Source of the DNA: a virus
Reading direction: 5' to 3' (one strand)
Virus record (IMG/VR): IMGVR_UViG_3300025701_000679
Coordinates: 1-20,078 of that record
Length of the DNA: 20,078 nucleotides
The notes beneath the pieces were generated by a model. The model ran no database searches. It was given only the letters and a program-made list of their open reading frames with translations, and was not told where the DNA came from. The position numbers were made by a program, and so were the translations under genes. This document shows, piece by piece, positions 7,488 through 19,779 of the stretch (position 1 is its first letter; every line of letters begins with the position of its first letter).

Positions 7488-8329
7488 GCAAACAAATAAC
7501 AGTAGTAACTACATTTCATCCGGCAGGATATACAAAATACGGCGAGCGTTTTTTAGAAAGCTTCGCAAAAAGAGTAGACAAGCGTATTAAATTACTAGTG
7601 TACGCAGAAGATTGCAAACCTCACAATCCTGATCCTACACGTATTGAAATATTAGATGCAACGCAAGTATTGCCTAAACTAAATGCATTTAAAGCAAAAT
7701 GGAAAGATGTTCCTAAGGCTAACGGTGATATTAGTCAAGACCCTGTACGCAGTAAACGCAAGGATTGGAACAAAGAGTTTAAATGGGATGCTATACGGTT
7801 CGCTAATAAGACATACGCTGTGTATGACGCTTGTACACGCTCTAAGGACTGGTGTGTGTGGATGGACGCGGATACATTTGTACACAGTACATGGACATAC
7901 GAAGACTTTATAGAACTACTTCCTAACAATGCGTATATTACATATGTAGGTAGAGGTAAAGGATCGCAAACATGGCCAGAGTGCGGATTCTACGGCATGA
8001 ACTTAAATCATCCTGTGTGTCACGAGTTTCTTAAAGAATTTGAGCGCATGTACGAAGATGCAGAGAACGGAATGTTCTTGCTAGATGAATGGCATGACAG
8101 TTACATCTTTGGCGAGATACTGAAGCAGTATAAGGAATTTCCATCTCACGATTATAGCGCAGACATGTATTTGCGTGAAGCTAAAAGCGGAGGAGGCGGA
8201 CATCCGCTTATCAACGGACCACTTGGCAAATGGATAGACCATATGAAAGGTGGCCGCAAAGACACAGGAAGAAGCCTTAAGAAAGATATTATGGTTAACA
8301 GAACAGAAGCATATTGGAATGAAATTTAG
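7484..8329 (+). CDS. GT-A-like glycosyltransferase or related protein
   Basis: A 281-residue protein, probably a GT-A glycosyltransferase. I chose the ATG at 7484 because it makes an ATGA overlap with the upstream stop; an in-frame ATG at 7454 would overlap the preceding gene by 34 bp. The N-terminus ITVVTTFHPAGYTKYGERFL reads as a first beta strand and helix. The segment WCVWMDADTFV (123-133) carries the D-x-D motif (D128, D130). Later segments are CGFYGMNLNHPVCHEFL, LLDEWHDSYIF and a glycine/histidine-rich stretch near GGGGHPLINGPLG. This arrangement of strand, DxD, then a D-E-W-H-D-S block is consistent with retaining GT-A enzymes, but I cannot name the family. It overlaps paralogue C by 11 bp. 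Confidence 0.68.
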   Translation: MSKQITVVTTFHPAGYTKYGERFLESFAKRVDKRIKLLVYAEDCKPHNPDPTRIEILDATQVLPKLNAFKAKWKDVPKANGDISQDPVRSKRKDWNKEFKWDAIRFANKTYAVYDACTRSKDWCVWMDADTFVHSTWTYEDFIELLPNNAYITYVGRGKGSQTWPECGFYGMNLNHPVCHEFLKEFERMYEDAENGMFLLDEWHDSYIFGEILKQYKEFPSHDYSADMYLREAKSGGGGHPLINGPLGKWIDHMKGGRKDTGRSLKKDIMVNRTEAYWNEI

Positions 8330-9164
8330 TTTATGGACACACAACGGTGCGCTTAACAGTAGACCAGTTTTTGATGCCTTTAGTGACAGTCTTGTGGCTG
8401 CTGGGCATGATGTTAGTTATAATAATGTTGACGCTGACGTTAATGTTATTTGGAGCGTTCTTTGGAATGGTAGAATGGCTAGGAACGAAGTTGTATGGAA
8501 TCAAGACAAGCCGACTGTAGTATTAGAAGTAGGCGGAATAAAGAGGGGAACAACATGGAAGGTAGGATTAAATGGTATTAACAGAGATGCTTATTTTGGC
8601 GATTATATGGGGCACGATAACAACCGTAGTAATCTACTTGCACTCGAAGTAAAGCCTTGGCGTACTGCCGGTGAGTACATTTTAATATGTGGACAACATG
8701 ATAAGAGTTTACAGTGGAAAAACATGCCACGTATGAGCAATTGGTTTTTACAAACATATGACGAAATACGCAAGCACACAGAACGTCCTATAATATTTAG
8801 ACCTCATCCACGCTGTAGATTAGAACACATAGAACGTGGACTTAAACACGTATACAGACAGGAGCCACAACATGTTAGCGGCACTTATGACGATTTTGAT
8901 ATGCAGTTTAATAATATATGGGCTACTATTAGTCACTCGAGCAATCCTGGAATTCATTCTATCATTTCCGGCGTTCCTAGTTTTGTTAGTAATCACAGTC
9001 TTGCTTATGATGTAGCCAACGACATAGACTTTTTACACGACATAGAAAATCCACTAATGCCAGATAGACAAGAATGGCTCAACGACTATGCTTACACTGA
9101 ATGGACCGTTGAAGAAATTTCTCAAGGTTTGCCGCTTAAAAGATTGACAGATAAACTATTTTAA
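8319..9164 (+). CDS. GT-B-like glycan transferase, paralogue C
   Basis: A 281-residue protein and the third paralogue. I place the start at ATG 8319 (MKFSLWTHNG), which gives a short 11-bp overlap with the upstream gene. The in-frame ATG at 8250 would overlap it by 80 bp and add residues not found in the relatives. It shares VKPWRTAGEYILICGQHDKS, TERPIIFRPHPRCRLE, ATISHSSNPGIHSIISGVPSF and the tail WLNDYAYTEWTVEEISQG with paralogues A and B. The RPHP motif and S-N-P-G-I-x-x-x-x-S-G-x-P block match the donor half of GT-B capsule-type transferases. It closes the glycan cassette; 14 bp later the next gene starts from a promoter whose -35 box lies inside the 3' end of this gene. Confidence 0.7.
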   Translation: MKFSLWTHNGALNSRPVFDAFSDSLVAAGHDVSYNNVDADVNVIWSVLWNGRMARNEVVWNQDKPTVVLEVGGIKRGTTWKVGLNGINRDAYFGDYMGHDNNRSNLLALEVKPWRTAGEYILICGQHDKSLQWKNMPRMSNWFLQTYDEIRKHTERPIIFRPHPRCRLEHIERGLKHVYRQEPQHVSGTYDDFDMQFNNIWATISHSSNPGIHSIISGVPSFVSNHSLAYDVANDIDFLHDIENPLMPDRQEWLNDYAYTEWTVEEISQGLPLKRLTDKLF

Positions 9165-9172
9165 GTTATACT
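9144..9172 (+). promoter_or_regulatory. Sigma70-type promoter before the 391-aa gene
   Basis: TTGACA at 9144-9149, a 17-bp spacer, and TATACT at 9167-9172: one mismatch from the full consensus with ideal spacing. The ATG at 9179 lies after only 6 nt, where transcription should begin, so the transcript is predicted to be leaderless. It is likely read by host RNA polymerase early in infection. Confidence 0.72.
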
Positions 9173-9178
9173 GTATGT

Positions 9179-10354
9179 ATGATAAATGATATTGAAGATT
9201 GCTTAGAATACCTTGTAGGACTGCGCCAGTCATCTGTTAACTTTACTATCGAAAAAACCGACTATACTATTATAACTAGTATTGCACGGCAAGTTTATAA
9301 AGGTACAGCATTAACTGATAAACAATTCTTACTTATGCGCAACAAACTGCAATTTTATAGAGACCAATTTACTAATTTAGATTGGGACTTTGATTATGCA
9401 GTTAATCAATTGCGTCAGCCCTTGCGTCATATTGATCGCAGTAAATATATCAAACTTGTGGACAACGAAATCAAAATAAGATTTCCTTTTAGAAAAACTG
9501 AAATAATGTTGGTGCAGGAAGTTGCAAACACTGCACAAGATAATTATCATCATCAAAAAGGATCGCACACTCATTATTTTGGATGTAACGAAATTAATGT
9601 ATTAAACATTGTAGATAGATTTAAAGATAAACAATTTACTATTGATCAAGAAATTCTCGACTTGTATAAAGATATAAAGTCAATACACAATAATCCACAA
9701 GAATATCTAAGCGGTGTATCTTCGGATAATAAATTAATTAATATCAATCCTAGATTGTTGCCTATTATCAACAGTGAATTAGGTGAATTATCTAATGAAA
9801 CATTTACGCAATTTATTGACAGAAGATTTCGCTACGGATTTAATTATACTCAAACATTTGACTCAAAGAGTCTTGCAGATAAAATAGCATTGCGAAATGA
9901 CAACGCATATCAAAGTAAACCTAGTGAAGAATCGACAGATGATATTTTAGGCGCACTATGGCAGTTAGATAGATTTCCGTTGTTAGTAGTGTTAGAAGAC
10001 GATAAAGCAGAACAGCAGTTATATGAATTTGCAAATCATTATAGAGACATTTTAAATCCAGAACAGCAAAGCGTATTGTTTCGTTTAGAAGACAAGGACG
10101 CAGGGTTTAACCAATTGATTAGAGATCGCAAACTAAACAATTGGGTTGACAAAACTACAAAAGTAGTGTATATTAGTAAGAATAAATTACCTAAATTACT
10201 TGTGAATAATGAATGGAAGCCTAGTGCAGCCTTTAGTTTTACAAGTAGTTTAGATCGCTTTTTAGATAGTTATGTTTCATTTAACTGTGACTTAATTGTA
10301 TATAGAGAAGAACATATGAGTCCATTCAGGAGACATTCAAGATACTATGGCTAG
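9179..10354 (+). CDS. Conserved-looking protein of unknown function upstream of uvsW
   Basis: A 391-residue soluble protein I do not recognise. It is rich in charged and aromatic residues, without signal peptide or membrane segment. Notable parts are KGSHTHYFG, which contains a small His cluster, LDRFPLLVVLEDD-like strand segments around residues 264-276, and a C-terminal NCDLIVYREEHMSPFRRHSRYYG that ends very basic. It starts at ATG 9179; the next in-frame Met is about 50 residues on, so the promoter-proximal start is required for the full protein. It overlaps uvsW by 8 bp, and the two are surely co-expressed. A role in replication or recombination alongside the UvsW helicase is inferred from context only. 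Confidence 0.82.
   Translation: MINDIEDCLEYLVGLRQSSVNFTIEKTDYTIITSIARQVYKGTALTDKQFLLMRNKLQFYRDQFTNLDWDFDYAVNQLRQPLRHIDRSKYIKLVDNEIKIRFPFRKTEIMLVQEVANTAQDNYHHQKGSHTHYFGCNEINVLNIVDRFKDKQFTIDQEILDLYKDIKSIHNNPQEYLSGVSSDNKLININPRLLPIINSELGELSNETFTQFIDRRFRYGFNYTQTFDSKSLADKIALRNDNAYQSKPSEESTDDILGALWQLDRFPLLVVLEDDKAEQQLYEFANHYRDILNPEQQSVLFRLEDKDAGFNQLIRDRKLNNWVDKTTKVVYISKNKLPKLLVNNEWKPSAAFSFTSSLDRFLDSYVSFNCDLIVYREEHMSPFRRHSRYYG
10146..10174 (+). promoter_or_regulatory. Possible internal sigma70-type promoter upstream of uvsW
   Basis: TTGACA at 10146-10151, a 17-bp spacer and TATATT at 10169-10174 lie inside the 391-aa gene, about 170 bp before uvsW. Spacing and boxes are good, but in AT-rich coding DNA such matches arise by chance. 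It could give uvsW a separate transcript. Confidence 0.3.
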
Positions 10355-11810
10355 TTGCAAATTAATAATTGAAGATGAAGTAAACATTAAACTAGAAGGT
10401 CTTGATGTTGATGTACGCCGAAAGTTAGCAAACGCACTCAAGTTTGAAGTGCCGTATGCAAAGCATATGCCTCAGTATAAACTAGGTAGATGGGATGGCA
10501 AAGTTGCTTTCTTTGGCATCGGCGGCACAGGCTACGTTAATCATCTTGATGTTGTTAGTCAAGTGCTTGCAAAAAACAATGTTGAAATAGTTAGTATTGA
10601 AGACAAGCGGCATCCAATTAAATTAGAATTCAAACCAGTAACAGAAACGTACTGGAAAGATCAAGGTGTTGTATGGCCAGAAGGTCATCCAGCAGAAGGC
10701 GAAGATATTATTCTTCGTGACTATCAAGTTGAAGCAATCAACAACTTTATTGCTAATCCACAGAGTCTACAGCAAATTGCTACAGGCGCAGGCAAAACAA
10801 TTACAACTGCTACGTTATCACACATCAGTGAACCTTACGGGCGTAGTCTTGTTATTGTGCCTAATAAGTCCTTGGTTGAGCAGACAGAGGAAGACTATAT
10901 TAACTGTGGATTAGACGTAGGGGTGTACTTTGGAGACAGAAAGCAACTAGGTAAGACTCACACAATATGCACTTGGCAATCCTTAAATATTTTGGACAAG
11001 AAGCATAAAGATGGCTCAGCAGTGCTATCACTGGCTGAGTTTTTAGAAGGTGTAAGCACTGTTATTGTTGACGAAGTACACATGGCGAAAGCAGAAGTTC
11101 TTAAAAACTTGCTTACTCGCAACCTACGTAACGCTCCAATCCGCTGGGGACTAACTGGCACAGTGCCAAGAGAAAAGTTTGAATTTGAAAGTATTCACGC
11201 ATCACTTGGTCCTGTTATTGGAGCAATCACAGCAAAAGAACTACAGGACAAAGGTGTGTTATCAGCATGTCATGTTAATGTAGTACAACTAATTGATACA
11301 GTTGCACATCGTGATTATCAAAGCGAACTAAAGTATCTAACATCAGATACAGCACGTTTAGAATATATTGGTAAGATGATGAACACAGTATCTCAATCAG
11401 GCAATACTCTAATTCTTGTAGATAGAATTAGTGCAGGCGAAACATTAGCAGAACTTATTCCAGGCAGCACTTTTATTAGTGGAAGTGTAAAAGTAAAAGA
11501 TAGAAAAGAAACCTACGATACTATTCGTGAAGGAACTAATGAAGTAATTATTGCAACTTATGGTGTTGCAGCAGTTGGACTTAATATTCCTCGTATCTTT
11601 AATCTTGTGTTACTCGAACCTGGAAAAAGTTTTGTACGAGTAATCCAATCAATTGGTAGAGGCGTAAGAAAGGCAAAGGACAAAGACTTCGTGCAAATAT
11701 GGGATCTTACAAGTACGTGTAAGTTTGCGAAGCGACATCTGACTCAGCGTAAGAAATTTTACAAAGAAGCAGAGTATCCCTTTACTATTGAAAAAGTGGA
11801 TTGGAATTAA
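10347..11810 (+). CDS. uvsW: UvsW DNA helicase
   Basis: A 487-residue superfamily 2 helicase matching UvsW (T4: about 500 residues). UvsW unwinds branched DNA and R-loops, drives branch migration, and shifts T4 from origin- to recombination-dependent replication. The first 100 or so residues form the small substrate-binding domain, with the segment PQYKLGRWDGKVAFFGIGG (42-60). Helicase motifs follow in order: LRDYQVEAI (123-131), Walker A ATGAGKT (145-151), DEVH (242-245), LTGT (269-272), the motif V region TYGVAAVGLNI (404-414) and QSIGRGVRK (434-442). It overlaps the upstream gene by 8 bp. In this phage it lies about 8.6 kb from uvsY, with the glycan cassette between them. Confidence 0.95.
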   Translation: MASCKLIIEDEVNIKLEGLDVDVRRKLANALKFEVPYAKHMPQYKLGRWDGKVAFFGIGGTGYVNHLDVVSQVLAKNNVEIVSIEDKRHPIKLEFKPVTETYWKDQGVVWPEGHPAEGEDIILRDYQVEAINNFIANPQSLQQIATGAGKTITTATLSHISEPYGRSLVIVPNKSLVEQTEEDYINCGLDVGVYFGDRKQLGKTHTICTWQSLNILDKKHKDGSAVLSLAEFLEGVSTVIVDEVHMAKAEVLKNLLTRNLRNAPIRWGLTGTVPREKFEFESIHASLGPVIGAITAKELQDKGVLSACHVNVVQLIDTVAHRDYQSELKYLTSDTARLEYIGKMMNTVSQSGNTLILVDRISAGETLAELIPGSTFISGSVKVKDRKETYDTIREGTNEVIIATYGVAAVGLNIPRIFNLVLLEPGKSFVRVIQSIGRGVRKAKDKDFVQIWDLTSTCKFAKRHLTQRKKFYKEAEYPFTIEKVDWN

Positions 11811-12936: not shown

Positions 12937-13194
12937 TTGGCTAAGATGATTCCAGGCGAAGCATTGATATACGAGCGTAGCGACGGTGTTGTCTACGCTC
13001 ATTATCGAGATAAACCTGAGATACCTCGTTGGATTATAGGCGGCGATCCAGGTGCTGTTGCAAGAGCACAAGGTGAAATATTAGACTACGGTGAGTGGAA
13101 AAACTTATGCGAAGTAGCTTCAAAAAATCCAACACTTAAAAAAATAATGGACAAGTTAGTTACTACGTATTATATAGTAAAGGATGAGAAATGA
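12937..13194 (+). CDS. Small unknown protein
   Basis: An 85-residue soluble protein of unknown function (82 if read from the ATG at 12946, which gives MIPGEALIYERSDG). The TTG at 12937 lies 3 nt after the preceding stop codon; neither start has a strong ribosome site. Visible parts are GVVYAHYRDKPEIPRWIIGGD, a likely small beta domain, and a lysine-rich C-terminal helix. Its stop overlaps the ATG of kdsA (ATGA), so it is translated in the same unit as the Kdo genes. No motif points to a job. Confidence 0.68.
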   Translation: MAKMIPGEALIYERSDGVVYAHYRDKPEIPRWIIGGDPGAVARAQGEILDYGEWKNLCEVASKNPTLKKIMDKLVTTYYIVKDEK

Positions 13195-13964
13195 GAATTA
13201 TTGCAGGGCCGTGTCAGCACGAAACACTTGCACAGAGTTCAGAGATTGCACAAGAGTGTAAACGTGTGTGCGACAAGTATGGCATCGAATATTACTTCAA
13301 AGCAAGTTTTGACAAAGCCAACCGTACAAGTGCCAGTGGTAAACGTGGCATGGGCATAGATGCAACACTTACAGATTTTCTTGCACTTAAAGTTACACTG
13401 GGTGTAAAGACTCTAACAGATGTACATGATGCTGTACAAGTTAGACGTATTGAAAGACAGTTTAAAGATGCAGTTGACGTATATCAAATTCCTGCATTCC
13501 TTTGTCGACAGACTGATCTTATTCAAGCAGCATGTGCTACAGATAAGATTGTTAACATTAAGAAAGGTCAATTCCTTGCACCGTGGGACATGGCAGGAGT
13601 GCTAAGTAAGTGTGCAGACGCTAAAGAAGTCTGGATAACTGAGAGAGGTACAAGTTTTGGTTACAATACTTTGGTCGTGGACTATACTGGTATGCAGTAT
13701 ATGCTTGATAACTTTAACTGTCCTCTGGTATTTGACGCTACCCATAGCGTACAAAAGCCAGGCGGCAATGGAAGTAGTAGCGGCGGGAATCGTGCTTACG
13801 TTCCTGGCATGGCTCGTAGTGCCGCCGCTTTGGGTGTTACTAATTATTTCTTAGAAGTACACCCTGATCCGGACAACGCACCCAGCGATGGTCCTAACAT
13901 GCTACGTTTAGAAGATTTTGAAGGAGTAGTAGATGACATCCACCGCTATTCTTATACCGGCTAG
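13191..13964 (+). CDS. kdsA: 3-deoxy-8-phosphooctulonate (Kdo-8-P) synthase
   Basis: A 257-residue KdsA that condenses phosphoenolpyruvate with arabinose-5-phosphate to give Kdo-8-phosphate, the committed step to Kdo in LPS and some capsules. Recognised by IAGPCQHET (4-12), FKASFDKANRTSASGKRG (36-53), LTDVHD (75-80), the catalytic-barrel segment FDATHSVQKPGG (181-192), GGNRAYVPGMARSAAALG (198-215) and FLEVHPDPDNAPSDGPN (220-236). The Cys in GPC (C8), together with H185, E222 and D233, matches the ligands of the metal-dependent class, whereas E. coli KdsA has Asn in place of Cys. It is slightly shorter than bacterial KdsA (about 280). It overlaps kdsB by 32 bp and the preceding small gene by 4 bp. 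Confidence 0.95.
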   Translation: MRIIAGPCQHETLAQSSEIAQECKRVCDKYGIEYYFKASFDKANRTSASGKRGMGIDATLTDFLALKVTLGVKTLTDVHDAVQVRRIERQFKDAVDVYQIPAFLCRQTDLIQAACATDKIVNIKKGQFLAPWDMAGVLSKCADAKEVWITERGTSFGYNTLVVDYTGMQYMLDNFNCPLVFDATHSVQKPGGNGSSSGGNRAYVPGMARSAAALGVTNYFLEVHPDPDNAPSDGPNMLRLEDFEGVVDDIHRYSYTG

Positions 13965-14616
13965 ATACGGCAGCACACGCTATCCTGGAAAGCCGTTAGT
14001 TGCATTAGACAACGTTCCTATGATACGCAGAGTATACGAACGCTGCCGCAAGTCAGGGTATGATGTATACGTGCTTACAGATGACAAACGTATTGCAGAC
14101 AAGTTTGAACCACATCAAGTTATTATTGATTTAGAAGATTACGAAAACGGCACAGAACGATGCGCCGGCGCTGTGGCAATGCGCACACTTGATGACTACG
14201 ATCAGTTTATAAATGTACAGGGTGATATGCCAGATGTAACAGCAGAGCTAATTGAAAAATGCATTGCTAGTTTATCTCAATATGAAGTAAGCACAGTGTA
14301 CACAGCAATGCCGAGTAAAATGCAAAACGATCCTAATTCAGTTAAGATGGTACGTGCAGGCGATCAAGCTCTATGGTTTGGCAGAGGCATGACAGGTTAT
14401 GGAGAATGGCATTTAGGTGTTTATGGATATCGTAAACAAGCTCTGCAAGCATACCCGCACTTGCTTGTAGAAGCAGAAGAACGCATAGAGAAACTTGAAC
14501 AATTGCGTTGGCTAAAAAACGGTTGGCAAATTGGCTGTAAGAGTGTATACTTTAATGGAGTAGAGATTAATACCCCGGAGGATGTTGAAACATGGCAGCA
14601 GAAAAACTTGCAATAA
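13933..14616 (+). CDS. kdsB: CMP-Kdo synthetase (3-deoxy-manno-octulosonate cytidylyltransferase)
   Basis: A 227-residue KdsB that activates Kdo with CTP to give CMP-Kdo, the donor for Kdo transferases. The nucleotide-binding start AILIPARYGSTRYPGKPL (5-22) is diagnostic. It is followed by MIRRVYERC, VLTDDKRIAD, ENGTERCAGAVA (the family SGT-[DE]-R block), FINVQGDMPDV (the GD-x-P metal site, with Met where Glu is usual), HLGVYGYRKQAL and EINTPEDVE near the end. It is about 20 residues shorter than E. coli KdsB, with the loss between LWFGRG and HLGVYGYR. The start ATG at 13933 lies inside kdsA behind GAAGGAGTAGT, a strong ribosome site. KdsC phosphatase is not in the window; host enzymes would have to dephosphorylate Kdo-8-P. 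Confidence 0.94.
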   Translation: MTSTAILIPARYGSTRYPGKPLVALDNVPMIRRVYERCRKSGYDVYVLTDDKRIADKFEPHQVIIDLEDYENGTERCAGAVAMRTLDDYDQFINVQGDMPDVTAELIEKCIASLSQYEVSTVYTAMPSKMQNDPNSVKMVRAGDQALWFGRGMTGYGEWHLGVYGYRKQALQAYPHLLVEAEERIEKLEQLRWLKNGWQIGCKSVYFNGVEINTPEDVETWQQKNLQ

Positions 14617-15059: not shown

Positions 15060-15732
15060 GCCATACAAATGTGAATACTGCGGCAGTAGTTATGTAAGAG
15101 AGTCAACTCTTATGGCGCATTTGTGTGAAAAGAAACGTAGAGCATTACAAAAAGATGAGCGCCGAGTGCGACTAGGCTTTTATGCATTCAATCAATTCTA
15201 TAAACTAAGTGCTGGCGCAAAGAAAGATAAAACATACGAAGAATTTTGTAAAAGCAGTTACTACAATGCATTTGTAAAGTTCGGTAGCTTTGTATCAAAC
15301 GTAAAGCCGTTGTATCCTGAGAAGTATATTAACTATGTTGTTACTAGTGGAGTTAAATTAGATCATTGGTGCAGAGAAGAAATGTATGAAACATACGCTA
15401 CTGAACTTATTAAAAAAGAAGGTGTAGAAACTGCACTTGAACGTAGTATTAATACTATGGTAGAGTGGGCAGAAGAAAACAACAGTGTTTGGAATCATTA
15501 TTTTTTATATGCTAATCCTAACAGAGCAGTATGGCATATCAGAGATGGAAAGATTAGTCCATGGCTGATGCTTAATTGCAAAAGCGGAAAAGAAATGCTG
15601 GGCAATTTTAATGACGAACAGTTGAGCATGATATATAATATTGTAGATCCTAAACACTGGGGAGTACGATTTAAAAGACAAACAGCAGACGTACAATTAG
15701 TAAAAGACGTTGTAAAGGAAAGTAAATTATGA
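15037..15732 (+). CDS. Phage protein with N-terminal C2HC zinc finger
   Basis: A 231-residue protein with a single zinc finger near its start: YKCEYCGSSYVRESTLMAHLC (10-30), with C12, C15, H28 and C30 as presumptive ligands. The rest is an all-helical domain with no recognised catalytic motif. Its texture is FYAFNQFYKL, FVKFGSFVSNVKPLYPEKYINYV, KLDHWCREEMY. I start it at ATG 15037, which overlaps the upstream gene by 23 bp and follows GCAGAAGAGC; the in-frame ATG at 14980 would add residues in deep overlap with the upstream gene. It ends ATGA with the deformylase gene. A nucleic-acid-binding role is suggested by the finger and the basic region KKRRALQKDERRVR right after it. Confidence 0.82.
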   Translation: MKLQSNSKPYKCEYCGSSYVRESTLMAHLCEKKRRALQKDERRVRLGFYAFNQFYKLSAGAKKDKTYEEFCKSSYYNAFVKFGSFVSNVKPLYPEKYINYVVTSGVKLDHWCREEMYETYATELIKKEGVETALERSINTMVEWAEENNSVWNHYFLYANPNRAVWHIRDGKISPWLMLNCKSGKEMLGNFNDEQLSMIYNIVDPKHWGVRFKRQTADVQLVKDVVKESKL

Positions 15733-16226
15733 AACTAATTACATACCCAAATGAAATCTTAGAACGTGAAGTTAAAGATGTTGACTTAGAAAATCCAGGA
15801 TTTGATCCTGTCGAACTTAAAAAAGAAATGGTCGACTTTATGATAGCAAACAACGGCATCGGCCTAAGTGCAAATCAAGTCGGACTTGATGCAAAAGTGT
15901 TTGTTATGGGAGACAGTGTAGAAAATAGTACAATGTGTATTAATCCTACAGTACTACAATACACAGAAGAAACTGTAGACGATATCGAAGGTTGTTTGAG
16001 TTTTCCAAATGTGTTTGTTAAAATTAAACGTCCTAAAGAAATACTTGCAGAATGGTATAATGAAAAATTAGAAAAACAAACTGTAAAGATCGAAGGATAT
16101 AGTGCCAAGTGCTATTTGCATGAATTAGATCATTTGTTAGGTATTACATTTAAAGATCGTGCAAGCAAACTTAAATGGGACATGGCGCAAAAGAAAGCAC
16201 GTAAGTATGAAAAGCAACATGCGTAA
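15729..16226 (+). CDS. def: Peptide deformylase
   Basis: A 165-residue peptide deformylase, which removes the N-formyl group from nascent proteins. All three family motifs are present: GIGLSANQ (43-50), EGCLS (87-91, with C89 as the metal ligand) and HELDH (131-135, with both metal His and the catalytic Glu). The length fits the family, with a C-terminal charged tail rather than the long helix of some bacterial forms. Deformylase genes are known in marine T4-like cyanophages, where they are thought to support processing of phage or photosystem proteins. It is coupled to the zinc-finger gene by ATGA and overlaps the next small gene. The second motif has SFP after EGCL, slightly off the usual SVP, which is tolerated in the family. 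Confidence 0.96.
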   Translation: MKLITYPNEILEREVKDVDLENPGFDPVELKKEMVDFMIANNGIGLSANQVGLDAKVFVMGDSVENSTMCINPTVLQYTEETVDDIEGCLSFPNVFVKIKRPKEILAEWYNEKLEKQTVKIEGYSAKCYLHELDHLLGITFKDRASKLKWDMAQKKARKYEKQHA

Positions 16227-16389: not shown

Positions 16390-16919
16390 GTGATATTAAA
16401 ATCTACGACAATTTTATTGATAAGACTGTTTTTGAAGAAATGAAAAAGCAAGTACTGAATATCAATTGGCAGTATGGCGATAAGATTGCCAACGATTTAA
16501 ATAATTCTCCTAATTGTGAGGAAAAATACGACTGGCAAATGGCTCATGTTTTTTACAAACATCCGTTTGAAATGTCTGATAATTTTTCTATTATAAATCC
16601 AATTGTACAAATAATACAGCCTGCTATTATGTATAGAGCAAAACTTAATCTTAATCCATGCACTGATAAGATTGTAGAACACGGTTATCATCAAGACTAC
16701 CAGCCAGAATCAGTTGGTAAAATATTTACATCAGCAATTTTCTATCTAAATACTAATAATGGTTATACAAAATTTGAAGACGGCACAATAATATCTAGTA
16801 TTGAAAACAGACTAGTAACATTCCCGTCAACTATGCTGCACACCGGAACTAGCTGTACTGACACAAAATATAGATTAGTTTTAAACTTAGTTTACGTTAA
16901 TGGAAGTTACTTTGCCTGA
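16386..16919 (+). CDS. 2-oxoglutarate/Fe(II)-dependent oxygenase
   Basis: A 177-residue protein of the 2OG-Fe(II) oxygenase superfamily (prolyl-4-hydroxylase-like), the type frequent in marine T4-like phages. The iron-binding HxD is in GYHQDYQP (H102, D104). The distal His is H152 in FPSTMLHTGTS, and R163 in KYRLVLNLVYV would bind 2-oxoglutarate. Between them IFYLNTNNGYTKFEDG is the usual core strand with its Gly/Phe turn. Substrate unknown: protein hydroxylation, nucleic-acid demethylation or small-molecule oxidation are all possible. It is coupled by ATGA to the small gene upstream and overlaps the polymerase-like gene downstream by 20 bp. Confidence 0.9.
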   Translation: MSDIKIYDNFIDKTVFEEMKKQVLNINWQYGDKIANDLNNSPNCEEKYDWQMAHVFYKHPFEMSDNFSIINPIVQIIQPAIMYRAKLNLNPCTDKIVEHGYHQDYQPESVGKIFTSAIFYLNTNNGYTKFEDGTIISSIENRLVTFPSTMLHTGTSCTDTKYRLVLNLVYVNGSYFA

Positions 16920-17472
16920 TATTGATATAGATTTTGCAGATAGAGACATTATACTATCGAAAATACAACACCGTGTAGCAAAGTTAAACACGGGAAAAAA
17001 ACATAATACTGGAGTCTATGCAACAGAGATTCCGCATAATCCTATTGACAACTTGGCCACAGTTGATCATAAGGCAGCAGACGAGCGTGGCTATTTTAAA
17101 CTAGATTTTCTTAATGTAAGCATATACAAAGACGTTAAGAACGAAATACATCTAATAGAACTAATGGAAAGGAAACCAATATGGGAACTACTGGAGCACG
17201 AAGACTTCAGCGAAAGCGTCTTTCATCTAAACGGGCACGGAGCACTGCTGAAGCAATTGAAGCCGCAATCGGTAGAACAATTAGCAGCGACACTAGCTAT
17301 CATTCGACCAGCGAAGAGGCATCTAGCGAACGAGACTTGGGAAACAATAATGAAGGAAGTATGGACAAAGCCGACTGATGGTGCATACTACTTTAAGAAG
17401 GCTCATTCAGTATCCTACGCAATGGCATGCGTAGTACATATGAATTTATTATGTGATCAACTCAGTCTTTAG
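16900..17472 (+). CDS. Miniature DNA polymerase III alpha (DnaE)-like protein
   Basis: A 190-residue protein whose segments follow, in order, short pieces of the bacterial C-family replicative polymerase. LPDIDIDF (5-12) corresponds to the LPDFDVDF motif that supplies two catalytic Asp residues (here D9 and D11). FKLDFLNVSIYKDV (67-80) corresponds to the strand with the third (D69). VFHLNGHGALLKQLKPQSVEQLAATLAIIRP (107-137) parallels the VFQLES..L..L.P..FEDIIALVALFRPG region. YYFKKAHSVSYAMACVVHMNLL (163-184) parallels FNKSHAAAYALVSYQ. The PHP, beta-clamp-binding and OB domains are absent, and the distance between catalytic motifs is far shorter than in DnaE (above 1100 residues). It could be a reduced polymerase, a nucleotidyl transferase or a decoy. 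It overlaps the minus-strand gene tail-to-tail by 11 bp. Confidence 0.75.
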   Translation: MEVTLPDIDIDFADRDIILSKIQHRVAKLNTGKKHNTGVYATEIPHNPIDNLATVDHKAADERGYFKLDFLNVSIYKDVKNEIHLIELMERKPIWELLEHEDFSESVFHLNGHGALLKQLKPQSVEQLAATLAIIRPAKRHLANETWETIMKEVWTKPTDGAYYFKKAHSVSYAMACVVHMNLLCDQLSL

Positions 17473-17853: not shown

Positions 17854-18639
17854 ATGCAATTGCTATCAAGATATTTAGTCAAAAATAGAATCACCATCAT
17901 AGCGGATGTGGCAGGATTCATTACGGAGTATAGACCAGTGTATAACAGACAAGTACAAGTATATAAAGGAATAGATAATATCCTAGAATTTAGATTATTA
18001 AACGCAGATCAAAAACCAATTAACACTGAAGGGTATACTCCAAAATTTAGAGCATTTGACGAAACTAATAATTTAGTCTTAGAAAAAGACGGAACAGTAT
18101 TAGATGACGGAAGTACAGCAACTAAAGGGTTGTTTACTGTTACTATCACTGAAAATGAGTTATTAAATTTAAAACAGCAATATTTAAGCTACAACATTTA
18201 TCTTATTGACAGTGCCGGTGATAACATACTAACATATACTGATACACATTTTGGTATGGATTCAATAATAAAAATAAGCACCGAAGCATTTCCTGGTCCA
18301 AAAAATTCTATTAATATCACCTCATTTACCGAAACCGGAGTCAACTCGGGTATATGGACTAGCAGTACATTAGATGCCCAACCTGCTATTAATGGCAATG
18401 AAGCATTACACACCGCAGCAGTGTATACAGCGTCATACAGCGGTGATGTTGTAGTACAGGCTACTCTTGATAACCAAGTAACAGAAAGCACACAGTGGGC
18501 TGATGTAGCTACGTTAACCTTTAGTGGCACAGAAACTACACCAACACCTGTAAACTTTAATGGTGTGTTCAGTCATATACGTTTCAAAACAGATGCCAAC
18601 CCGGCAGATAAAATTACTAAAGTTTTAATTAGAAACTAG
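17854..18639 (+). CDS. Probable virion structural protein, beta-sandwich type
   Basis: A 261-residue protein with the texture of a phage structural or adhesion protein: no catalytic motif, rich in Thr, Ser, Asn, Asp and alternating strands. The N-terminal part (about 1-135) includes FITEYRPVYNRQVQVYKGID, then LEFRLLNADQKPINTEGYTP and GLFTVTITENELLNL. This resembles the Ig-like N-terminal fold found in baseplate or fibre-associated proteins. The C-terminal part (about 150-261) has repeats of the type AAVYTASYSGDVVVQATLDN and TFSGTETTPTPVNFNGVFSHIRFK, suggesting a second jelly-roll-like domain. It starts directly after a late-type box. The next in-frame Met is more than 130 residues away, so this start is required. 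Where in the virion it sits is unknown. Confidence 0.68.
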   Translation: MQLLSRYLVKNRITIIADVAGFITEYRPVYNRQVQVYKGIDNILEFRLLNADQKPINTEGYTPKFRAFDETNNLVLEKDGTVLDDGSTATKGLFTVTITENELLNLKQQYLSYNIYLIDSAGDNILTYTDTHFGMDSIIKISTEAFPGPKNSINITSFTETGVNSGIWTSSTLDAQPAINGNEALHTAAVYTASYSGDVVVQATLDNQVTESTQWADVATLTFSGTETTPTPVNFNGVFSHIRFKTDANPADKITKVLIRN

Positions 18640-18667
18640 TTGACAAACTAAAATACTTTGCTATAAT
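18640..18667 (+). promoter_or_regulatory. Consensus sigma70-type promoter for the primase gene
   Basis: TTGACA at 18640-18645, a 16-bp spacer and TATAAT at 18662-18667: both hexamers match the consensus exactly. The primase ATG at 18674 follows after 6 nt, the same distance as at the 9144 promoter, so transcription should start at or next to the A of ATG. The -35 box begins one base after the end of the preceding gene. Confidence 0.8.
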
Positions 18668-18673
18668 AGTAGT

Positions 18674-19654
18674 ATGAGTATTGTATCCGACACAATTACA
18701 GCACACTTGCCAGCAAAGCGTAAGACTACTCCGAGTGGGTGGACTAGCTTCAATGCCCCCTGCTGTCAACACAACGGCAATACAGCAGACACTAGAGGAC
18801 GCGGTGGACTTATTAGTGAAGGTGATACTGTAAGCTATCATTGTTTTAACTGCGGATACAAAGCAAGCTGGCAACCAGGTAGACCGGTGTCTAACAAGCT
18901 GCGTAAGCTTCTACAGTGGCTCAACTGTACAGATGATACAATAACACGGCTGACCTTTGACGTCATGCGCTTAAACGAAGGCGTTGAGGTAGCAGAGCGC
19001 AAGATAGAACTGCCTACATTTGAAACTGTACCACTACCTCCTGATGCAATTAAAATTACTGATATTACTGATTTCAACAAATTTAGTTTAGCTATCCTTG
19101 AGTATATGGCAGCACGTCATTTAAACTTAGATGATACTGATTATTATTGGAGCCCTAGTCTAGCATATCGTGATAGACTTATCATTCCGTTTTACTATGA
19201 AAAACGTATTGTAGGATGGACTGCTAGAACTATTGCAGCAGATAAAAAGCCCAAGTATCTTATGGAAGTACAGCCTGGATTTGTTTATGGACTAGACGAA
19301 CAAGGATACAACAAAGTATTTGCTATTGTGTGTGAAGGACAGATAGATGCTATTCACGTAGATGGTTGCGCACTAGGCGGTTCAGAGATTAATGATGCAC
19401 AGGCAATGCTTATCAACAAACTCAATAAAGATGTGTTTGTTGTACCTGATAGAGATCATGCTGGTAAAAAATTAGTAGAGCAAGCTATCGAACAAGGCTG
19501 GGGCGTTAGCATGCCTGAATGGAGTCAGGAAATTAATGATATAGGCGATAGTGTTGATAAGTACGGAAGACTATATACACTATACAGCATTGCTAGTGCT
19601 GCTGAAACTAGCCCACTTAAAATTAGACTGAGAGCAAAAAAATGGTTCGTATGA
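18674..19654 (+). CDS. DNA primase, T4 gp61 type
   Basis: A 326-residue primase that makes RNA primers for lagging-strand synthesis with the replicative helicase. The N-terminal zinc-binding domain shows C30/C31-x-x-H (CCQH, 30-33) and C57-x-x-C60 (YHCFNCGYKASW). A TOPRIM catalytic domain follows: IVCEGQIDAI (218-227) with the conserved Glu E221, and VVPDRDHAG (256-264) with the D-x-D pair D259 and D261. The segment LIIPFYYEKRIVGWTARTI (169-187) before the TOPRIM is also typical. T4 gp61 is 342 residues, so the length fits. The gene has its own consensus promoter with no 5' leader. It ends ATGA with a very small gene. Confidence 0.93.
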   Translation: MSIVSDTITAHLPAKRKTTPSGWTSFNAPCCQHNGNTADTRGRGGLISEGDTVSYHCFNCGYKASWQPGRPVSNKLRKLLQWLNCTDDTITRLTFDVMRLNEGVEVAERKIELPTFETVPLPPDAIKITDITDFNKFSLAILEYMAARHLNLDDTDYYWSPSLAYRDRLIIPFYYEKRIVGWTARTIAADKKPKYLMEVQPGFVYGLDEQGYNKVFAIVCEGQIDAIHVDGCALGGSEINDAQAMLINKLNKDVFVVPDRDHAGKKLVEQAIEQGWGVSMPEWSQEINDIGDSVDKYGRLYTLYSIASAAETSPLKIRLRAKKWFV

Positions 19655-19779
19655 TAAAGAAGATATTAAAAAAGATATGGGAATGGATAACATGGCCCTA
19701 CTACAAAGTCAAAGAAGAAATTAAATTCCGTAAACGCATGAAAGAGCTACGGGAAAAAGACCCGTTTATCTATAAATGA
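19651..19779 (+). CDS. Tiny basic protein ending in DPFIYK
   Basis: A 42-residue protein (45 if read from ATG 19642). It begins MIKKILKKIWEWITWPYYK and ends KELREKDPFIYK. It is strongly basic and aromatic and would form an amphipathic helix that could lie on a membrane or bind nucleic acid. I prefer ATG 19651 because it gives an ATGA overlap with the primase stop. The stop in turn overlaps the ATG of the carbamoyltransferase gene as ATGA, so it is squeezed exactly between two coupled genes, which is good evidence that it is translated. No function assigned. Proteins of this look with a D-P-F-x-Y end seem familiar from marine T4-like phages, but I cannot verify that here. Confidence 0.72.
   Translation: MIKKILKKIWEWITWPYYKVKEEIKFRKRMKELREKDPFIYK

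Follow-up and report, generated by a model that had tools for sequence, protein, structure and literature searches.

Conserved promoter geometry points to a leaderless primase mRNA in uncultivated giant phages and in Pseudomonas phage PA5oct

The DNA analysed here (the window, 20,078 bases in its entirety) is a record of an uncultivated virus that carries uvsX, uvsY, uvsW and a gp61-type primase gene; it is a piece of an uncultivated T4-like phage genome. A megablast search with the window returned no near-identical phage in GenBank, and the nearest GenBank primases, at most 36% identical, come mostly from giant phages (PA5oct, Phosso, RaK2, 121Q). The window primase has both features of the gp61 type: an N-terminal zinc-binding CCxH...CFNC motif and a Toprim-type domain (PHROG 47 / Toprim_2). 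On its 5' side lies a virion structural-like gene (Table 1), and RaK2, PA5oct and others have the same structural neighbour beside their primase gene. The window and the giant phages have the order structural gene - primase in common, with a gp41-type helicase gene next in most of the latter. On the 3' side, a 42-aa ORF overlaps both the primase stop codon and the next start, at position 19776. The terminator-like site at 19749 was considered as a possible terminator of a primase-only transcript and rejected, since the 42-aa ORF spans it and the site thus lies in coding sequence. Further upstream in the window, a 190-aa piece (16900-17472) is related to the PHROG 11778 DNA polymerase; RaK2 and Atu_ph07 have a short polymerase-annotated ORF at a similar place near the primase. 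The regions 13191-14616 and 15729-16226 hold KdsA- and KdsB-like genes (read by eye) and a peptide deformylase gene (Pfam).

Table 1. Features of the primase and U400 loci, in window coordinates
Feature	Position	Strand	Basis or remark
Second promoter, TTGACA-N17-TATACT	9144..9172	+	TTGACA 9144-9149, N17, TATACT 9167-9172, GTATGT; same geometry, 6 nt before ATG 9179
Predicted leaderless ORF U400, 391 aa	9179..10354	+	C-terminal half helicase-lobe-like (model)
UvsW-type helicase	10347..11810	+	Overlaps U400 end
Virion structural-like gene 5' of primase	17854..18639	+	PHROG 14467 E=3.8e-9; synteny
-35 TTGACA	18640..18645	+	Directly after upstream gene's TAG, 18637-18639
16-nt spacer, ending TGC (extended -10)	18646..18661	+	In relatives sequence drifts, length 16 or 17
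-10 TATAAT	18662..18667	+	Hexamer match, conservation
Six-base discriminator AGTAGT	18668..18673	+	Length conserved; T just before ATG
Predicted transcription start, A of primase ATG	18674	+	7th base after -10; initiation step; lambda cI geometry
DnaG/gp61-like DNA primase, 326 aa	18674..19654	+	PHROG 47 E=4.7e-35, Toprim_2
42-aa ORF	19651..19779	+	ATGA overlap with primase stop; read by eye

The initial annotation described an exact TTGACA and an exact TATAAT upstream of the primase gene, separated by a 16-nt spacer and with the ATG 6 nt after the -10 box, and we confirm all of these positions. With 12 of 12 hexamer positions matching the sigma70 consensus, a spacer within the accepted 16-18 nt and a TGn extended -10, this site ranks first of the 82 promoter-like sites detected there and is the only 12/12 match. 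The exact pattern TTGACA-N14-19-TATAAT occurs once, versus 0.05 expected per shuffled window. As a sequence criterion for leaderless genes (after PMC3160421) we required about 8-14 bases from the A of the -10 box TATAAT to the start codon and no Shine-Dalgarno (SD) sequence; the primase ATG lies 11 bases from that A and is preceded by no SD. In bacterial leaderless genes the -10 box stands about 12 bp before the start (PMC3160421).

The ATG at 18674 had been regarded as obligatory because the zinc-binding CCQH begins at residue 30 with no Met in between. That observation holds, but a possible TTG start at codon 12 had been overlooked. We rejected the TTG as the true start: it has no SD and is not conserved among relatives. 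Protein alignment shows that Met1 and the N-terminus are conserved among relatives, and conservation of the protein from residue 1 supports the ATG. All scored primase loci start with ATG except PA5oct (GTG).

We fetched 80 IMG/VR relatives, laid out the regions upstream of their primase genes and dereplicated them to 55 loci (including PA5oct). The 6-nt box-to-start distance, put forward earlier as the property to compare in related phages, turned out to be conserved and so survives the refutation test set for it: it is 5-7 nt in 54 of the 55 loci and exactly 6 in 49. An SD is found in none of them, in line with the absence reported for the window. The 55th locus is that of the cultured PA5oct, whose first GTG, the one used for scoring, lies at 0 nt and is followed by another at 6 nt. 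When the loci are aligned at the ATG, values near 2 bits are reached by TTGAC and, within the -10, by T-A---T. The spacer columns mostly carry 0.1-0.7 bits and the discriminator 0.2-1.1 bits, its bases varying and their count constant. The -35 begins immediately after the upstream stop codon (zero gap) in 44 of 54 loci, and spacers of 16 nt are in the minority, 17 nt being the length in most distant relatives.

A second set of relatives, seeded separately from a distant primase, shows the same geometry at protein identities of 40-47% and of about 32%, with one weak exception that has no recognisable -35 (L364). In some loci of this set (the L345 group) the -35 lies within the coding sequence of the gene upstream, whose stop codon the -10 overlaps. 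On a tree of 67 primase proteins the predicted leaderless state extends over the uncultivated phages and PA5oct, and the RaK2/121Q/Vibrio and rhizobial branches have an SD and no promoter at a distance of 6 nt. We consider these comparisons strong grounds for an arrangement, predicted to be leaderless, that has persisted while the sequences diverged extensively, in a large, mostly marine group of uncultivated giant phages and in PA5oct. The SCTP2 and RAS14 primases also score at 6-7 nt, but with weaker boxes and uncertain tree positions. In these two phages (L211, L215) a terminator-like hairpin, identified by eye, overlaps the -35 of the possible leaderless primase promoter.

A second gene of the window, U400, has the same box-to-ATG distance, a coincidence that had been taken to make chance less likely. 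Its conservation bears this out: the distance is 5-7 nt in 45 of 47 dereplicated U400 loci. No Pfam family matched U400, its PHROG matches were only marginal, and tblastn gave no counterpart in cultured phages. The predicted structure has a pLDDT of 91.7, and its C-terminal half resembles a helicase lobe, matching XPB with a Z of 9.9 and T4 UvsW with 8.8 (middling values). U400 adjoins uvsW on its 5' side, and the two are probably co-transcribed. ORF 8250-9164 has conserved last residues, and the -35 of the U400 promoter falls within its coding end (window 9144-9164); one DNA stretch appears to serve both.

The gp41 helicase gene is mixed. The distance is 5-7 nt in 26 of 69 loci, and about 10 loci have the same boxes 22-27 nt away together with an AAGG or AAGGA SD. 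This switching between a leaderless form and a leadered one with SD suggests that short distance and SD are alternatives.

To place these genes in their genomic setting, we surveyed six large related contigs and the window (about 1.17 Mb; 1,316 ORFs from simple, uncurated ORF calling) for promoters with at least 11 of 12 matches near gene starts. There are 25 such promoters at 5-7 nt, where the genome-wide rate would give about 0.5, as well as 4 at 9-17 nt and 91 at 18-45 nt. An SD accompanies 90% of the 18-45 nt class and 1 of the 25 members of the 5-7 nt class, the background being 8%. The short-distance class consists mostly of primase, U400 and helicase genes, with about six more in a 357-kb contig; the other strong promoters mostly make predicted leaders of about 12-38 nt. 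In PA5oct, at the same threshold, the short geometry is found only at the primase (GTG, 6 nt) and at a putative exonuclease, EST35_0240 (ATG, 7 nt).

RNA polymerase prefers to begin transcription at a pyrimidine-purine step some seven bases past the -10 box. Among promoters with a distance of exactly 6 nt, such a step falls on the A of the ATG in 96% for primase, 100% for U400 and 50% for helicase (a small set). A pyrimidine just before the ATG is present in only 49% of leadered genes, and leadered promoters have two favoured steps, at position 7 (62%) and position 9 (65%). The first 45 nt of the predicted leaderless genes are less structured than internal stretches. A search of the open literature found no mapped 5' ends for PA5oct. 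For a 5' end at the primase start codon, the position of the initiation step is indirect evidence, as is the comparison with lambda cI; on the sequence evidence as a whole, a leaderless primase mRNA is strongly indicated.

Weak promoter matches are common in AT-rich DNA: the window has 82 promoter-like sites, against 75.7 expected on shuffling. For the primase promoter, the 12/12 match and its conservation across relatives refute a chance origin, to which we give practically no credence. The promoter might also fire and the primase nonetheless be translated mainly from mRNA reading through from upstream, by coupling or by 70S scanning across the ~34-nt gap. This would fit the upstream stop directly before the -35 in most primase loci and the lack of room for a terminator between the structural gene and the primase in the window. 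However, the stop-to-start distance is very different for primase and U400 and the -10-to-ATG distance is constant, remaining unchanged even in the L345 group, where the stop overlaps the -10. Re-initiation would have no SD to rely on, and coupling leaves both the conservation of the hexamers and the pyrimidine ahead of the ATG unexplained; we therefore regard readthrough as very unlikely to be the main source of primase. Transcription could, alternatively, start a few nucleotides before the ATG, giving a near-leaderless mRNA with a leader of 1-6 nt, and a pyrimidine-purine (TA) step is indeed present at position 4 in 80% of the primase promoters with a distance of 6 nt. Yet this position is unusually near the -10 and carries the step in only 27% of U400 promoters, whereas the step at the A of the ATG is near universal in both genes, which makes the upstream start unlikely.

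A further alternative concerns purpose, not mechanism: leaderlessness may have no regulatory role and be merely the cheapest way of fitting a promoter into a tight junction. For the primase the -35 does begin right at the preceding stop codon, and for U400 it begins within the preceding gene. However, elsewhere in these compact genomes promoters retain leaders and SD, and the helicase gene switches forms among related phages; we give this explanation slightly less than an even chance.

The geometry, its conservation, the absence of SD and the two promoter classes are directly visible in the sequences, and from them we infer promoter activity, the exact 5' end and leaderless translation. In the reading that we hold to be very probable, this is a working sigma70-type promoter: host sigma70 RNA polymerase would use it and start at the A of the AUG, so that the primase mRNA would have neither a 5' leader nor an SD and would be translated by leaderless initiation at its 5'-terminal AUG, the codon that 70S ribosomes bind in this mode (PMC9031893). 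The arrangement would be both selected and old, being conserved for primase and U400 (upstream of uvsW) and partly for gp41 helicase. Counting against this reading, primase function does not need leaderlessness, since in the RaK2/121Q/Munch/Vibrio group and in rhizobial phages the same primase has an SD leader. In addition, GTG, which PA5oct uses, is less favourable than ATG for leaderless translation in E. coli. As a conjecture, leaderlessness may fit promoters into junctions that leave no space for a leader and also set replication genes apart translationally. A more far-reaching proposal, which we consider doubtful, is a distinct class of leaderless replication genes (primase, U400-uvsW, often gp41) that would bypass SD-dependent initiation, be controlled apart from SD-led genes and perhaps be favoured by ribosome changes during infection. 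A phage-encoded ribosomal protein bS21 is present in 3 of 8 large contigs tested (L297, L298, L299) and in PA5oct (170955-171161); as a hint to such ribosome changes it is suggestive at most.

The classical leaderless phage mRNA is that of lambda cI transcribed from PRM. As in the window primase, the -10 lies six bases before the ATG, a T precedes the ATG and there is no SD (checked in NC_001416). PRM differs in being an activated promoter serving a temperate repressor; the window has near-consensus -35 and -10 boxes, lytic replication genes and a layout conserved across the phage group. Bacterial TA-led leaderless genes (Zheng et al. 2011, PMC3160421) similarly lack an SD and have a Pribnow-like box some 11-12 bp ahead of the start, but these are host genes, whereas here we see a few phage genes amid SD-leadered genomes. 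RaK2, 121Q, GAP32, Munch and Vibrio phage 2.275 share with the window the primase family and the order structural gene - primase - gp41, but have an SD before the primase start in 5 of 5 cases; in RaK2 and 121Q a -10-like box lies about 26-29 nt before the start.

Pseudomonas phage PA5oct resembles the window in its primase gene, EST35_0223: TTGACA-N17-TATAAT is followed 6 nt later by a start codon, an SD is absent, and the -35 comes shortly after the stop of the upstream gene. Unlike in the window, the codon at 6 nt is GTG, and the deposited start is a GTG at 0 nt, inside the stretch expected to be untranscribed. In this stretch (L206:2983-2989; MK797984.1 145884-145890) the deposited start is probably wrong, the GTG at 145890 fitting better. 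Only one viral contig came near the PA5oct primase, at 32% identity.

Leaderless phage genes are usually cited singly, lambda cI first. Leaderless replication genes in giant phages did not turn up in a search of the open literature, which is weak evidence of novelty: leaderless phage genes as such are known, and leaderless replication genes conserved group-wide, beside SD-led genes, are apparently unreported. Here a core replication gene would be leaderless as a conserved trait of a broad group of large phages, whose genomes also contain leadered, SD-led genes. The contrast within the same genomes would provide a natural comparison of two initiation modes, with PA5oct on P. aeruginosa PAO1 as a cultured test case. 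For gene callers it would mean that a start 6 nt after TATAAT is credible, the likely wrong primase start of PA5oct being an example.
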